Part shown: piece after piece, positions 1,307 to 7,688 of the stretch
Position numbering within the stretch: the first letter of the stretch is position 1
Layout: each line of letters starts with the position of its first letter
Origin: Planctomycetota bacterium
GTDB lineage: Bacteria > Planctomycetota > Brocadiia > SM23-32
Assembly (NCBI GenBank): GCA_030604585.1
Contig: JAUVVP010000008.1
Location: 1 to 13,373, forward strand
DNA: 13,373 nucleotides
Direction: 5' to 3'
Notes under the pieces: model-generated
Seen by the model: only the letters and a program-made list of their open reading frames with translations
The model's database searches: none
Told to the model about the DNA's origin: nothing
Translations under genes and position numbers: made by a program

Positions 1307-1353
1307 ACGGCGGCGCCGTGAACGGGCTCAGTCACTGAGCAAGGGTAAGCTCA
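1307..1353 (+). promoter_or_regulatory. Palindrome-rich 5' leader with alternative pairings around the ribosome binding site
   Basis: Two odd-length perfect palindromes lie in the predicted leader. ACGGCG-G-CGCCGT spans 1307-1319 and GCTCAGT-C-ACTGAGC spans 1326-1340. TGAGC at 1336-1340 can also pair with GCTCA at 1349-1353. That second pairing places the Shine-Dalgarno candidate AAGGG (1341-1345) in an eight-base loop just before the ATG. The two pairings of TGAGC exclude each other. The 15-base palindrome could instead be a protein operator in DNA. No known riboswitch class is recognised here. Confidence 0.4.
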
Positions 1354-1354
1354 C

Positions 1355-2524
1355 ATGCAGATCGAACTGCGGTACGGCTGCAATCCGCATCAGGCGTTCG
1401 CGCGCGTGGCTATGGAAGGTGAGGCGGGGCCGCTGCGGGTGCTGAACGGCGCGCCCAGCTACATCAACATCCTCGACGCGCTGGGCGCCTGGCAGCTCGC
1501 TCGCGAGCTGAAATGGGCCACCGGGCTGCCCGGAGCCGCCTCCTTCAAGCACGTCAGCCCCGCGGGAGCGGCGGTTGCCAAGCCCCTCACCGAGTCCTTC
1601 CGCCGGTCGCAGATGATCCCGGAAGGGGAGATCTCGCCCGTAGCCACGGCCTATGCAAGGGCCCGCGGCGGGGACAGGATGTGCTCCTTCGGGGACGTGG
1701 CCGCCGTCAGCGACGCGGTGGACGTCTCCCTGGCGAAGGTCATCGGACGGGAGGTCTGCGACGCCCTCATCGCACCGGGATATGCGCCCGAGGCGCTGGA
1801 CATCCTCAAGGCAAAGAAGGGCGGCAAGTTCCTGGCCCTTCAGATCGACGCGGACTACGAGCCGCCGGAGGTTGAGAGGCGCGACGTCTTCGGGCTCACG
1901 CTCGAGCAGACCAGCAACACCGCGCGCATAGGCCCCGAGCTGATCAAGGACGTCGTCTCGGAGAAGAAGGACGTCGCCGACGACGTGGTGCAGACGCTCC
2001 TGGTGGCCACGGTCGCGCTCAAGTACACTCAGTCCAACTCGATCTGCCTGGCCTACGACGGGCAGGTCATCGGGATGGGCGCGGGGCAGCAGTCGAGGGT
2101 CCACTGCACGCGCCTGGCCTGCGGCAAGGCGGAGAAGTGGCTCCTTCAGCAGCACCCGCGCGTGCTCGACCTCAAGTTCAAAGCTGGACTGAGCAGGCCC
2201 GAGAAGACGAACGTGGTGGACCAGTTCCTGCTGTGGGACGAGCTGTCCGAAGCCGAGCGGGAAGCGATGCTCGCCCAGCTTCAGGAGGCGCCCGAACCGC
2301 TTGCGCGCCAGCAACGGGCGGAATGGATAGACGCATTCGACGGCATCTGCCTCAGCTCCGATGCCTTCATCCCGTTCAGGGACACCATAGACCGCGCCGG
2401 CCGGAGCAACGTGCAGTACGTGCTCCAGGCGGGCCGGTCCCTGCGCGACGAGGAGGTGACAGCCGCCGCCGACCGATACGGAATGGTCATGATCCACTCG
2501 GGGATGCGGTGGTTCCTGCACTGA
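1355..2524 (+). CDS. Stand-alone AICAR transformylase (PurH C-terminal-domain protein)
   Basis: This 389-residue protein matches the formyltransferase half of PurH. That half moves the formyl group of 10-formyl-tetrahydrofolate onto AICAR to give FAICAR, the penultimate step of IMP synthesis in the cytoplasm. Diagnostic motifs are RYGCNPHQ (6-13), SFKHVSPAGAAV (63-74) with the catalytic Lys-His pair at 65-66, TQSNSICLAYDGQVIGMGAG (225-244), SSDAFIPFRD (334-343) and the C-terminal GMVMIHSGMRWFLH. Bifunctional PurH is usually a little over 500 residues. Here the N-terminal IMP cyclohydrolase (MGS-like) domain is absent, and no upstream frame encodes it. The protein starts directly at the transformylase domain, as in known stand-alone forms. 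IMP cyclohydrolase must therefore be encoded elsewhere. The ATG is preceded by AAGGG nine bases away. It is the first gene after the promoter at 1246-1274. Confidence 0.93.
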   Translation: MQIELRYGCNPHQAFARVAMEGEAGPLRVLNGAPSYINILDALGAWQLARELKWATGLPGAASFKHVSPAGAAVAKPLTESFRRSQMIPEGEISPVATAYARARGGDRMCSFGDVAAVSDAVDVSLAKVIGREVCDALIAPGYAPEALDILKAKKGGKFLALQIDADYEPPEVERRDVFGLTLEQTSNTARIGPELIKDVVSEKKDVADDVVQTLLVATVALKYTQSNSICLAYDGQVIGMGAGQQSRVHCTRLACGKAEKWLLQQHPRVLDLKFKAGLSRPEKTNVVDQFLLWDELSEAEREAMLAQLQEAPEPLARQQRAEWIDAFDGICLSSDAFIPFRDTIDRAGRSNVQYVLQAGRSLRDEEVTAAADRYGMVMIHSGMRWFLH

Positions 2525-2528
2525 GGGC

Positions 2529-2615
2529 CCGTCGGCCGAGCCACCGATCGGACGTTTGAGCGTAGGGGCGGTTCGCGAACCGCGCTCCGGCCCCGCTATG
2601 GGCGGGGTCCGACGG
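2529..2615. repeat. REP-like palindromic intergenic element
   Basis: This 87-base segment is bounded by a 7-base inverted repeat, CCGTCGG (2529-2535) and CCGACGG (2609-2615). Inside it are a perfect 16-base palindrome GCGGTTCGCGAACCGC (2568-2583) and a second hairpin, CCCCGC (2591-2596) with GCGGGG (2602-2607), around a 5-base loop. It fills nearly all the space between the purH-like stop codon and the dapF-like ribosome binding site. The core AGGGGCGGTTCGCGAACC resembles palindromes I recall from intergenic DNA of other GC-rich genomes, so it may be a dispersed repeat. It could also work as a hairpin in the mRNA that separates or protects the two cistrons. CACTG occurs on both sides (2519-2523 and 2616-2620), but the left copy is not flush with the element, so a target-site duplication is uncertain. 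Confidence 0.5.
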
Positions 2616-2635
2616 CACTGGAGGAGAGCGATCCT

Positions 2636-3481
2636 ATGAGGTTCAGCAAGTACCACGGCCTGGGCAATGACTACATCGTCCTGAATCCCGACGAAGTGGG
2701 CGACGAGCTGACCGAGGGGCAGATACGCCTGATCTGCCACCGCAACTACGGCGTCGGCTCCGACGGCATCCTGCTCGGCCCGCTGCCGACCGACGAGTGC
2801 GATTTCGCCCTGCGGATATTCAACCCCGATGGCAGCGAGGCGGAGAAGAGCGGCAACGGGCTGCGCATATTCTCGCGATGGCTCTGGGACGAGGGGCTGG
2901 TGGGCGAGGACGAGTTCACGATCATGACGGCCGGCGGCCTGGTGAAGTCGCAGGTGAGCGACCAGGGGCAGAGCGTGACGGTGGAGATGGGCCAGGTCAG
3001 CTTCGACAGCGCCCGGATACCGGTCGAGGGGCCGCCGAGGGAGGTGATAAGCGAGGAGATGGAGGTCGGCGGCCAGGTGCTGACCTACTGCGCCGCCACC
3101 GTGGGCAACCCGCACTGCGTGATCCTGCGCGACGAGGTGTCCGAGGAGGAGGCGCGGGCGCTCGGGCCGCCGATCGAGACCGACCCCCGCTTCCCCAACA
3201 GGACGAACGTGCAGTTCATGAAGGTACTGGACCGCTCGAACATCCGGATAGAGATCTGGGAGCGCGGCGCGGGCTACACGCTGGCCTCCGGCAGCAGCGC
3301 CAGCGCCTCGGCGGCCGTGGCGCACAGGCTCGGGCTGTGCGATTCCCCCGTCGCCGTCCACATGCCCGGCGGCCGCCTGGACATCGCCGTCGGCGAGGGC
3401 TTCGCCATCACGATGACGGGCCCGGTAACGAAGGTGGCCGAAGGCACCATCAGCGAGGAGGCATTCGGGCAGGAAGTATGA
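2636..3481 (+). CDS. dapF: Diaminopimelate epimerase family protein with both catalytic cysteines replaced by serine
   Basis: This 281-residue, full-length member of the DapF/proline-racemase-like fold is the size of typical DapF (about 275). DapF interconverts LL- and meso-diaminopimelate for lysine and peptidoglycan, using two facing cysteines as acid and base. Substrate-contact residues known from the H. influenzae enzyme are all present: Asn11 in GLGNDY, Asn63 in FNPDGSEAE, Asn158 in GNPH, Asn191 in RTNVQF, and Glu209-Arg210 in WERGAGYT. At the two catalytic positions, family CGNG reads SGNGLRIF (Ser72) and family ACGTGAC reads ASGSSAS (Ser218). DNA codons AGC and TCC confirm both. A Shine-Dalgarno GGAGGAG (2620-2626) lies nine bases before the ATG. 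The family assignment is firm. The activity is not: it may be a serine-based variant epimerase or isomerase, or act on another substrate. The symbol is given for the family only. Confidence 0.85.
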   Translation: MRFSKYHGLGNDYIVLNPDEVGDELTEGQIRLICHRNYGVGSDGILLGPLPTDECDFALRIFNPDGSEAEKSGNGLRIFSRWLWDEGLVGEDEFTIMTAGGLVKSQVSDQGQSVTVEMGQVSFDSARIPVEGPPREVISEEMEVGGQVLTYCAATVGNPHCVILRDEVSEEEARALGPPIETDPRFPNRTNVQFMKVLDRSNIRIEIWERGAGYTLASGSSASASAAVAHRLGLCDSPVAVHMPGGRLDIAVGEGFAITMTGPVTKVAEGTISEEAFGQEV

Positions 3482-3577
3482 GTGCCCCGCGCCGGATCGC
3501 ACCGCCTTGGAGCGAATGTGCGCACCGGCTCGCAAGAAGCCCCCTTGATAATCCCGCAGCGGGCTGAGAGGATGACA

Positions 3578-4471
3578 ATGCCGGCGGGAAGCACCCCACC
3601 GCGTCGCGAGCGCCACCCGCGGGACGTCCTGAGTAAGCACCGTATCCGGCCCCGCAGAGCAACCGGCCAGCGCTTCCTGGTGTCGGGCAAGGACCTGGAC
3701 CGGGTCGTCGAGGCCGCCTGCATCGGACCGGACGAAGCGGTGCTCGAGATCGGGACCGGCCTGGGCCGGCTCTCCGCACGGATCGCCGCGGAGGCCGGCC
3801 ACCTCGTGACCGTCGAGATCGACGATCGCCTGCATCGCATTGCCGCCGAGCGCCTCGGCGACCTGCCCAACGTGACGCTCCTGCGCTGCGACTTCCTCGC
3901 AAGCAAGCATCGCATCAACCCCGCCGTGGCCGAGGCCGTAAGGAGCGCGCTCGGAGGGCTCGCCCGGCCCCTGAAGGTGGTGAGCAACCTGCCCTACAAC
4001 ATCAGTTCGCCCGCCGTCGTCGCCCTGCTGGAATGGGACATCGCAGTGGGCGAGATGTTCCTGATGTTCCAGAAAGAGGTGGCCGACCGATTGGCCGCTT
4101 CTCCCGGCGTCAAGGAATACGGCCCGCTGACCGTCTGCGTGGACTACTGGGCGACGGTCGAGAGGCTGTTCTCGCTGCCGCGGCGCGCCTTCTGGCCGGT
4201 GCCGGAAGTCTCATCGGTTCTCGTGAGGATAGTGAAACGGGCGGAGCGGCGGCGGACGGCGCAGTACGACGCCTTTTCGGCCGTCGTCAGGAAGCTCTTC
4301 GAGGGGCGTCGCAAGACGCTACGCCGCAGTCTGCGGTCAGGTTGGGGGGATGAGAAAGCCGCCCAGGTGATCGAGCGCCTGGGCCTGGACCCCAGGCGGC
4401 GCGCCGAGAGCCTGAGCACCGAGGACTTCGAAGCGATCGCCGCAGTGACAGGCCCACCGCAGCGCGGCTGA
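3578..4471 (+). CDS. rsmA: 16S rRNA (adenine1518-N6/adenine1519-N6)-dimethyltransferase RsmA/KsgA
   Basis: From the ATG at 3578 this is a 297-residue Rossmann-fold methyltransferase. It dimethylates the two adjacent adenines of the 3'-terminal 16S rRNA hairpin during small-subunit maturation. Visible motifs are the N-terminal GQRFLV (30-35), SAM motif I EIGTGLGRL (57-65), acidic EID (80-82), CDF (104-106), the catalytic NLPYNI (137-142), MFQKEVADRL (163-172) and FWPVPEVSSVLV (205-216). A C-terminal helical domain contains FEGRRKTLRRSL. The start is ambiguous. A GTG at 3482, right after the dapF-like stop, would add 32 residues, and an in-frame ATG is at 3572. ATG 3578 is preferred because AGAGG lies six bases upstream. 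Family GQNFL is GQRFL here, so Arg32 replaces an asparagine that contacts SAM in E. coli RsmA (Asn18). Motif I has Thr in place of the usual Pro. The gene is the third in the plus-strand unit. Confidence 0.92.
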   Translation: MPAGSTPPRRERHPRDVLSKHRIRPRRATGQRFLVSGKDLDRVVEAACIGPDEAVLEIGTGLGRLSARIAAEAGHLVTVEIDDRLHRIAAERLGDLPNVTLLRCDFLASKHRINPAVAEAVRSALGGLARPLKVVSNLPYNISSPAVVALLEWDIAVGEMFLMFQKEVADRLAASPGVKEYGPLTVCVDYWATVERLFSLPRRAFWPVPEVSSVLVRIVKRAERRRTAQYDAFSAVVRKLFEGRRKTLRRSLRSGWGDEKAAQVIERLGLDPRRRAESLSTEDFEAIAAVTGPPQRG

Positions 4472-4506
4472 GGCCGCCGGCCCGCCACGGCGTCGCTGAG
4501 GCGGCC
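4472..4506. terminator. Possible bidirectional terminator between convergent genes
   Basis: GGCCGCC (4472-4478) pairs perfectly with GGCGGCC (4500-4506). A smaller hairpin CGCC-AC-GGCG (4483-4492) sits inside the loop. The element exactly fills the short gap between the stop of rsmA (plus) and the stop of the coiled-coil gene (minus), where both transcripts must end. There is no T tract on either side, so a classical intrinsic terminator is not proven. Confidence 0.4.
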
Positions 4507-4510
4507 GGCG

Positions 4511-5434
4511 CTACTCTTCCGCCGGCGCGTCTTCTTCCCCCTCGGGGGTCTCGGGTTCTTCGGGGTAGAGGTCGGCCTCGAGGTCATCGGGGGGAGCTTC
4601 GCCGCCTGTCTCCCCCATCTCAGCCGGGTATTCGCTTTCTTGCTCTTCGGGCGGGAGCGGGGTCGCTTCCAGGGACACGTCGCCAGCCTGCTGGGCTTCC
4701 TCGGCCTCGGCCAGCTCCTTGGCCTGTTGTTCCCATTCCTCGAACTCCTGCTCCTCTTCGCTGAGCGATGCGGGGAGGGCGGTCTCGGTCGCCGCGCCCA
4801 GCAGCGTGCGCTCGGCCCTCTCGCGGCTGCGCACCATGCTCTCGATGCTCTCGATGCGGCTTATGCCCATTTGCAGCTCGGATTTCATCTGCTGAAGGAT
4901 GCCGGAGATGGAACTGTCGAAGGAAGTCAGCACGCCGCTCAGTTCGGCCTGGAAGGTCTTGGCCAGGGTGTCGCGGAACTCGTCGAGCCGGTCGAAGAGG
5001 CCGGGAATACGGCCCTCCACTTCCGTGATGCGTTCGCGGAACCCGCCCACCTCCTCGGTGGCGCGGCTGACGCGCGCCTCCAGCTTGCTGACGGACTCGG
5101 AGTGCGCGGCGCCCTGCTGATCGATCCGTTCCTGGATCAAGTCCCCCTTCTGATCGATCTTTCTGGTCATCCGGGCGTCCAGTTCGACCGTGCGGGAGTC
5201 GAATCGCTTCTCCGCGCGCCGTTCCAGGTCGTCGAGCTGCTCTTCAAGCCCCCTGATGTCCTCCATCATGTCTCGCACGGCCCCCAGCGCCCTCAGCGCC
5301 GAGCGACGGCCCTTGATCAGCATCAACTGCAAACAGACGAACAGGATGAGAGCCACCCCCACTCCGAAGAGCACGATCAGTTGCTCCCATCCGCCTTCTT
5401 GAAGGATACCCACCAGCTTCTGCCACAGGTTCAT
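4511..5434 (-). CDS. Membrane-anchored coiled-coil protein with acidic C-terminal tail, function unknown
   Basis: This 307-residue protein starts MNLWQKLVGILQ. The first part is amphipathic, then one strong membrane segment follows at about 17-40 (LIVLFGVGVALILFVCLQLM) and a basic KGRR stop-transfer. Residues about 45-210 are charged and heptad-like, with repeated Arg/Glu/Leu patterns typical of a long coiled coil. Residues about 225-307 are very rich in Glu, Pro and Gly and probably disordered. The topology by the positive-inside rule places the coiled coil in the cytoplasm. The ATG is chosen because GGAGG lies five bases upstream. A longer frame reaching 5743 would run through the upstream glycosyltransferase and lacks coding character. 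I recognise no named family. Its position after the GT2 gene suggests, but does not show, a scaffold role in envelope or polysaccharide export. Confidence 0.75.
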   Translation of the reverse strand: MNLWQKLVGILQEGGWEQLIVLFGVGVALILFVCLQLMLIKGRRSALRALGAVRDMMEDIRGLEEQLDDLERRAEKRFDSRTVELDARMTRKIDQKGDLIQERIDQQGAAHSESVSKLEARVSRATEEVGGFRERITEVEGRIPGLFDRLDEFRDTLAKTFQAELSGVLTSFDSSISGILQQMKSELQMGISRIESIESMVRSRERAERTLLGAATETALPASLSEEEQEFEEWEQQAKELAEAEEAQQAGDVSLEATPLPPEEQESEYPAEMGETGGEAPPDDLEADLYPEEPETPEGEEDAPAEE

Positions 5435-7040: not shown

Positions 7041-7688
7041 TCAGACCTGGATGCCCAGCACGTGGCGCGCGTAGAGTTCCAGGGCCTCGGCCGCCGCTTT
7101 GAGGCGGTCCAACTTGTCCCATTCGGCACGGCTGAGCCGCTGGTGCTGGGCGTCCATGCGGCGCACCTTCTGGCGCAGCGGGCCGAGGTGACGTTCCAGC
7201 AGCTCGCGAATGTCTTCGCGGCGCTGTTCGGCCGCGTCCTTGACCTGTTCGGCGCGCTGCTCGGGGGCGAGGTCCTGCTCGCGAAAGACGCGCTGCACCT
7301 GGCGCATCACCTCTTCGTTCATCTTCAGAAGGGCAGCGGCGAGCTGGTCCAGCTCCGTAATCCGGCCGAAGGCGCCCCCAGCGCTCCAGGGCGCCTGGCG
7401 CAACGTGGGCGGCCCTCCCATCGAGGCGGGCCCCTGCCCCTCACCATCGTCCCCGCGCAGGCGCCTCCTCAGCAGCTCGGGGTCCACGTTGATCCTTCCC
7501 GGCTGGCCGGTCTCCTCCATGTCGGTGCCCTGGGCAATGGCCTCGATGTTGGCCAGGGGCACGTTGACGGGAGCGCCGCACTTCGGGCACGGGATCACGT
7601 TGCCGCCCTCAAGAGTCTCGCTGATCTTCAGCCTCTTGCCGCAGCCTTTACAACGGAACCTTATGTAGCCGTCGTCTTTGGCAGCCAT
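7041..7688 (-). CDS. Zinc-ribbon protein with C-terminal helical domain, function unknown
   Basis: This 215-residue protein begins with a treble-clef or zinc-ribbon module. Cys13-x2-Cys16 (RCKGCGKRLKI) and Cys34-x2-Cys37 (PCPKCGAPV) are spaced as in the small zinc ribbons that often open planctomycete and related proteins. A polar, Gly/Pro-rich linker (about 50-110) follows, then a charged helical region (about 112-215) with many Arg, Glu and Gln residues, likely coiled coil. No signal peptide or membrane segment is seen, so it should be cytoplasmic. AAGGGG precedes the ATG by six bases. It sits between cinA and the GT2 gene, 28 bases after cinA. I do not recognise the C-terminal domain and assign no function. 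Confidence 0.8.
   Translation of the reverse strand: MAAKDDGYIRFRCKGCGKRLKISETLEGGNVIPCPKCGAPVNVPLANIEAIAQGTDMEETGQPGRINVDPELLRRRLRGDDGEGQGPASMGGPPTLRQAPWSAGGAFGRITELDQLAAALLKMNEEVMRQVQRVFREQDLAPEQRAEQVKDAAEQRREDIRELLERHLGPLRQKVRRMDAQHQRLSRAEWDKLDRLKAAAEALELYARHVLGIQV

Follow-up and report, generated by a model that had tools for sequence, protein, structure and literature searches.

Canonical diaminopimelate (DAP) epimerase, DapF, carries two catalytic cysteines, and its relatives PhzF and PrpF, in which catalytic residues are changed, have other chemistry. The subject of this report is a DapF-type gene with serine codons at both catalytic positions, located in a 13,373-nucleotide (nt) stretch of a Planctomycetota genome (contig JAUVVP010000008.1), which is called the window below. 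In published accounts, the activity of cofactor-independent amino-acid racemases is explained by a desolvated, tuned cysteine thiolate, which takes a proton with a pKa of ~29 (PMC8142540; PMC12039745). The text on the Anabaena DapF places no basic residue within 4 Å of the catalytic sulfurs (PMC12039745), and the His and Glu at the positions corresponding to 160 and 209 of the window protein were called essential for DapF catalysis (PMC5885031). Catalytic serines have precedents in this fold, which are the Ser/Cys 4-hydroxyproline epimerase and the Ser/Thr 3-hydroxyproline dehydratase (PMC4113996).

The serine-type proline racemase superfamily differs from the window protein in its substrate, shares only ~15% identity with it, and in the account cited has no reported member with Ser at both positions (PMC4113996). 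The Chlamydia-type bifunctional DapF/glutamate racemase (NF038284) is a DapF relative that acts at the same pathway step, but it keeps both cysteines (PMC5885031). O-ureidoserine racemase (7vdy) and the histidine racemases HisR and CntK have a DapF-like fold in common with the window protein and act on other substrates, and HisR uses a Cys pair (PMC11602996). In the open literature, with most subscription papers and all supplements outside the scope, no recognisable description of a natural Ser/Ser DapF was found. Based on sequence comparisons and a predicted structure, we propose that the window gene probably encodes a functional DAP epimerase of a distinct Ser/Ser lineage, in which the serines would serve as the acid–base pair.

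RESULTS

The DapF-type protein has serine at both catalytic positions

The frame and start of the gene are those given by an earlier annotation made from the letters alone (the sequence-only reading). The window protein scored 248.7 bits against the curated DapF model TIGR00652 (cut-off 114.65) and 194.3 bits against the Pfam DAP_epimerase model. The closest solved structures by sequence were those of DapF, with 8qzy the best match, and the identity to canonical Cys/Cys enzymes (8qzy, 9mro, 3ejx, 1gqz) was ~35–41%. The predicted structure has the DapF fold and matches inhibitor-bound DapF. The scores against the PhzF model TIGR00654 (11.3 bits, cut-off 76.2) and the bifunctional racemase model NF038284 (62.3 bits, cut-off 350) fell short of the cut-offs, and proline racemase PF05544 was absent from the Pfam matches of the window protein up to an E value of 1. 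A precomputed PF05544 label stood beside PF01678 in four relatives (P0167, P0186, P0198, P0221). The cut-off of the CntK model was not reached, P0155 and P0209 alone giving matches, both below it.

The cysteine pair of canonical DapF is absent from the window protein and from the close relatives read. As the sequence-only reading had claimed, the residues aligned with the DapF cysteines are Ser72, encoded by AGC, and Ser218, encoded by TCC, and these codons rule out recoding or selenocysteine. Relatives were collected with the window protein and with a divergent member as queries, each search giving the best 120 of ~8000 scored candidates. In the first, a script found Ser at both positions in 119 of 121 proteins, including the window protein itself (P0001); of the other two, P0021 was missed by the pattern and is Ser/Ser by eye, while P0002 is an antisense translation and not a relative. 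In the second, the script found the pair in 118 of the 120 proteins listed; inspection by eye showed P0164, again missed by the pattern, to be Ser/Ser, and the motifs of P0185, SGSG and ASGTS, retain Ser at both positions. Tabulating the two positions over the listed relatives, where that reading had suggested all homologues, gave Ser at both throughout, save one fusion protein described below. Ser/Cys intermediates were not seen among the rows read, although none of the searches was directed at such forms. The presence of the same serines in relatives rules out an assembly error.

A genome scan matched at least 584 stretches, of which 80 loci were kept. Both codons encode serine in all 81 loci (80 relatives and the window), with AGY in 63 and TCN in 18 at the Ser72 position, and AGY in 12 and TCN in 69 at the Ser218 position. 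Because AGY and TCN are not one base change apart and both are used, serine itself is under selection.

Residues known to bind the substrate are retained. Asn11, Asn63, Asn158, Asn191, Glu209 and Arg210, noted as kept by the sequence-only reading, are invariant in 80 sequences (50 Ser/Ser and 30 Cys/Cys), and they include residues assigned to binding of both DAP ends in an account of the Anabaena enzyme (PMC12039745). The lineage differs from canonical DapF in Tyr6, Gln193, Tyr214 and Ser221. A pattern search found Tyr at both 6 and 214 in 225 of 239 lineage proteins, while Cys/Cys rows mostly have other residues there.

The Ser/Ser gene is often the only DapF-family gene

Only one PF01678 gene, the Ser/Ser gene, was found in the assembly of the window (2.65 Mb, 495 contigs, 70% complete), where the sequence-only reading had advised looking for a second, Cys/Cys dapF; of the 14 named control genomes, 9 gave a match in the same search. 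Among 42 genomes searched from the 80 loci, the Ser/Ser gene was the sole PF01678 gene over the cut-off in 30, two of which (G076 and G085) show an extra match below it. The other 12, four cyanobacteria, five Deltaproteobacteria and three others, have a further DapF-family gene, which was Cys/Cys wherever read (seen only in part in G070 and G072). In the family of the window, the Ser/Ser form stands alone in the window's own genome (G000), in G003 and in G004 (96% complete), and G002, G005 and G008 have just the Cys/Cys form; G006 carries another Cys-type gene, as does G001 together with meso-DAP dehydrogenase (Ddh), while G007 gave no match. The two forms thus swap between relatives within this family.

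The same relationship was followed in three orders, where Ser/Ser genes were called by E value against A1, a profile of the Ser/Ser form, weaker matches being read instead; seven strong matches were read and all were Ser/Ser, while most matches of either kind were unread. Among 116 Desulfobacterales genomes, 18 have the Ser/Ser form (one in two pieces), four of them together with another type, which is present in 89 of the 98 genomes lacking it. Among 117 Pirellulales genomes, neither of the two with the Ser/Ser form has another type, compared with 106 of the 115 others having one. Among 103 Opitutales genomes, two of which were left out for their unclear fragments, the Ser/Ser form was found in 75 (63 strong matches and 12 weaker ones that were read, one of them the second half only), and just one of these has another type; the remaining 26 comprise 12 with another type and 14 without a match. 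In sum, the ordinary form occurs in 5 of 95 Ser/Ser genomes versus 207 of 239 others (Fisher p 4e-47; Desulfobacterales 4e-9, Pirellulales 0.008, Opitutales 9e-8). These p values are overstated because genomes share ancestry, but the direction is the same in all three orders, in which the Ser/Ser form largely excludes ordinary DapF.

Ser/Ser domains are fused to LysA, and some genes adjoin the DAP pathway

In locus L028 (titled Ardenticatenales; 3060–5312, + strand), lysA and a Ser/Ser dapF form one 751-amino-acid (aa) frame with no stop between them, and the product passes the cut-offs of both LysA (354.4 bits) and DapF (223.9 bits). Its DapF half was used as a query against proteins of ~383–1220 aa, and 120 of 265 matches were listed; as the query was a Ser/Ser domain, this search is uninformative on fusions with Cys/Cys DapF. 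By Pfam labels, at least 68 proteins, all of them among the 120 listed, combine both LysA domains with DAP_epimerase, and a further 12 have the LysA C-terminal domain only, 23 have acetyltransferase-type (GNAT) domains and 17 are others. A few other partners among the listed fusions are RNA methyltransferase or DJ-1 type domains. Of the 68 LysA fusions, 62 are Ser/Ser by script and five more by eye, while in P0256 the first position is occupied by Thr. All six fusions chosen for scanning exceeded both the LysA and DapF cut-offs, and some fusions are annotated at source as decarboxylase/epimerase. Since LysA consumes meso-DAP, these fusions tie the Ser/Ser form itself to this compound.

When dapA, dapB, dapL and lysA were sought beside the gene in 86 loci, nine gave a match. 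Both dapA and dapB adjoin the Ser/Ser gene in L023, L025, L029, L033 and L076; L030 has dapL followed by a lysA-like gene, L039 has dapL ~6 kb away, L028 has the fused lysA, and L057 gave only a weak aminotransferase match. NCBIfam models confirmed dapA in the four loci scanned (L023, L025, L033, L076), dapB in five and dapL in L030. The DAP-pathway setting is therefore found through some relatives and their LysA fusions, and not in the window itself. Dulcicalothrix desertica has a divergent second Ser/Ser dapF adjoining lysA (463.8 bits; L198:6531–8842, − strand), in addition to another Ser/Ser and a Cys/Cys dapF. Three genomes (G064, G070, G099) carry, besides the Ser/Ser gene, a DapF relative of a distinct Cys type (motif YERGVEDETLACGTG and similar ones), which adjoins lysA (L193–L197, L176).

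Many genomes with the Ser/Ser gene encode consumers of meso-DAP

Pathway genes were searched in 47 genomes, 10 near the window and 37 of the 42 above, in which, the genomes being drafts, absence of a gene is weak evidence. LysA exceeded its cut-off in 40, MurE in 35, plant-type DapL in 25 and Ddh only in G001. Among the 31 genomes with only the Ser/Ser form, LysA was found in 24, MurE in 21 and DapL in 17, and Ddh was over the cut-off in none; a bypass by this enzyme was rejected on these counts. The genome of the window has LysA (476.7 bits) and MurE (449.8 bits), and it likely has DapL, the candidate (L228) scoring 494.6 bits, slightly below the cut-off of NF006756 (507).

The MurE motif DNPR, which we take to mark meso-DAP addition, was present in 15 of the 17 MurE read from Ser/Ser-only genomes, with EDPR in G074 and DNSR in G000. 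In the family of the window, DNSR was seen in all six MurE read (L172; G002, G005, G006, G007, G008), while most others read have DNPR. Ten reduced Opitutales genomes (0.8–1.3 Mb), chosen for a divergent match and all carrying the Ser/Ser form (two by eye), have MurE over the cut-off in eight and LysA in none; in ten full-size genomes the same searches found MurE in nine and LysA in four, the other six having LysA matches of 247–290 bits, below the cut-off. LysA and DapL without MurE over the cut-off were found in G075, G077, G079 and G087 (named Verrucomicrobia) and in G082. These five and G071 gave no MurE match over the TIGR01085 cut-off, their best matches being 1e-17 to 1e-20, and the Verrucomicrobia-type genomes in this set may have a divergent or missing MurE. 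The need common to all these pathway patterns is meso-DAP.

The Ser/Ser form crosses phyla

By record titles and tree labels, the Ser/Ser form occurs in Planctomycetota, Thermodesulfobacteriota, Myxococcota, Verrucomicrobiota, Cyanobacteriota, Chloroflexota, Armatimonadota and Sumerlaeota, and the divergent query added Bacillota (Desulfitobacterium, Desulfosporosinus, Desulfotomaculum, Orenia), Chlamydiota, Omnitrophota and Spirochaetota. As many carriers are metagenome bins, individual labels could be mistaken. In a tree with 67 Ser/Ser rows and 36 Cys/Cys rows, one branch parts the two forms (SH-aLRT 98); the tree was made by a quick method, is unrooted and has several long branches, and its Cys/Cys rows, mostly from Planctomycetota, cyanobacteria and Deltaproteobacteria, do not span the whole of DapF. 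Ser/Ser proteins are already in databases under the DapF name, and a caution to this effect in the sequence-only reading was borne out by the record names.

Features of the window

The positions of the features are collected in Table 1. The neighbors of the Ser/Ser gene in the window are a stand-alone AICAR formyltransferase gene and rsmA/ksgA. A conserved link with the former was rejected, since its apparent presence beside the gene in 62 loci was mostly due to antisense shadows and a direct search found it in L003 only. Plasmid or phage origin was also rejected, the best matches all having <60% identity (118 and 29 records).

Table 1. Features of the window, with positions counted from its first nucleotide
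Feature	Position	Strand	Basis or remark
AICAR formyltransferase gene, directly upstream of the Ser/Ser gene	1355..2524	+	NF005492, 578.2 bits
Open frame of 860 aa, antisense to two genes	1328..3910	−	Probably a high-GC effect
GGAGGAG, likely ribosome-binding site, 9 nt 5′ of ATG	2620..2626	+	Sequence; putative function
Ser/Ser DapF-type gene, 281 aa and stop	2636..3481	+	ORF (open reading frame) call, family models
Tyr6, lineage-specific; Met in most Cys/Cys rows	2651..2653	+	Alignment
Asn11, kept	2666..2668	+	Invariant in 80 sequences
Asn63 (Anabaena Asn66), binds distal DAP end	2822..2824	+	Invariant; role from PMC12039745
Ser72 (AGC), first catalytic Cys position, motif KSGNGLRIF (SGNG)	2849..2851	+	Alignment, codon reading
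Helix 73–85, starts directly after Ser72	2852..2890	+	Predicted model
Asn158-Pro159-His160; Asn158 is Anabaena Asn164	3107..3115	+	Invariant; PMC12039745, PMC5885031
Asn191 (Anabaena Asn197)	3206..3208	+	Invariant; PMC12039745
Glu209-Arg210 (Anabaena Glu215-Arg216)	3260..3265	+	Invariant; PMC12039745
Tyr214, lineage-specific, four residues ahead of Ser218	3275..3277	+	Alignment
Ser218 (TCC), second catalytic Cys position, motif ASGSSAS	3287..3289	+	Alignment, codon reading
Helix 219–231, starts directly after Ser218	3290..3328	+	Predicted model
Protein of 215 aa, N-terminal zinc ribbon weakly like LysW	7044..7688	−	Below cut-off
Protein of 318 aa	10674..11627	−	No Pfam or NCBIfam match

DISCUSSION

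The Ser/Ser form is often the only copy in its genome and is sometimes fused to LysA, which suggests that it probably does the same job as DapF with different chemistry. Lacking the cysteine pair, it is not classed here as a canonical DapF, although we propose that it works like one. It would interconvert LL- and meso-DAP, supplying LysA with meso-DAP for lysine synthesis and MurE with the same compound for peptidoglycan. Each of the two central helices would have a serine at its N-terminus, Ser72 or Ser218, and the two would lie on opposite faces of the α-carbon, like the DapF cysteines. When the site is closed and desolvated, the α-proton could be removed by one serine, as an alkoxide or hydrogen-bonded to a base, and the other serine could donate a proton back. 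A Ser/Ser pair that carries out both steps would go a step beyond the known precedents of the fold.

That DAP is the substrate seems very probable. The sequence-only reading had offered two options, that the protein belongs to a serine-using epimerase lineage or that it has been repurposed for a similar amino acid. The former is favored because the gene is usually the sole one, nearly excludes ordinary DapF, has dap neighbors and LysA fusions, keeps the substrate shell and occurs without Ddh. The latter, by which a same-fold enzyme would act on another amino acid or in another reaction (as racemase, isomerase or dehydratase) and meso-DAP would come from another source, is improbable. It is true that the chemistry differs in relatives whose catalytic residues are changed (PMC4113996), that a DapF-named protein proved to be a histidine racemase (PMC11602996), that both forms coexist in some genomes, above all in cyanobacteria and some Deltaproteobacteria, and that 23 of the 120 listed fusions carry GNAT domains. 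Yet the Asn, Glu and Arg residues that bind the distal end of DAP are invariant, and the dap-gene neighbors, the LysA fusions, the near-exclusion and the lack of Ddh in the 31 Ser/Ser-only genomes all argue against repurposing. An inactive paralogue or a sequencing artefact, which could be suggested by the loss of both thiols and by in-frame stops in two of the 18 Desulfobacterales Ser/Ser matches (G115:C86, G101:C124; pseudogene or sequence error), is very hard to reconcile with a gene conserved on many independent contigs, kept in reduced genomes and usually present as the only copy.

If DAP is the substrate, it is quite likely that the two serines themselves form the acid–base pair. The alternative that they only orient or hydrogen-bond, with Tyr6, Tyr214, His160, Glu209 or a bound water moving the protons, is rather unlikely. 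It draws on the near-constancy of the two tyrosines in the lineage, on the essential role ascribed to the His and Glu in DapF, and on the unfavorable pKa of serine (PMC8225329; PMC8142540), while selection for serine at exactly both catalytic positions through both codon classes, the ability of Ser to act as a base in the same fold (PMC4113996) and the lack of basic residues near the sulfurs of Anabaena DapF (PMC12039745) speak against it. Several observations also weigh against the proposed Ser/Ser epimerase as a whole. Serine is described as a poorer base that is harder to desolvate (PMC8142540), and either Cys-to-Ser change leaves <0.1% activity in the racemase PddB, in a report that cites the same loss for M. 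tuberculosis DapF (PMC8225329). As a bare swap should consequently fail, the Ser/Ser lineage must have adapted. In addition, the TGNG motif of P0256 has Thr in place of the first serine, dap genes were absent from the fetched flanks of 77 of the 86 loci, many of them cut short, and are likewise absent beside the gene in the window, a second dapF could be missed in the window's assembly, which is 70% complete, and in the 12 of 42 genomes with other DapF-family genes the DAP work need not fall to the Ser/Ser gene. Together with the in-frame stops, these points temper the proposal.

On balance, the data lean toward an old, phylum-crossing lineage of amino-acid epimerases in which a pair of serines would carry out two-base proton transfer at the α-carbon, with neither thiol nor cofactor. 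Most of its hosts would have no other DAP epimerase, and some would have it fused to DAP decarboxylase in a single bifunctional protein. The disulfide inactivation reported for C. glutamicum DapF (PMC5296763) would be impossible in such an enzyme. If this is true, a second chemistry is concealed behind many database entries with the DapF name, and a natural two-serine epimerase would demonstrate that the reaction can do without the thiol and offer a system for asking what replaces it.
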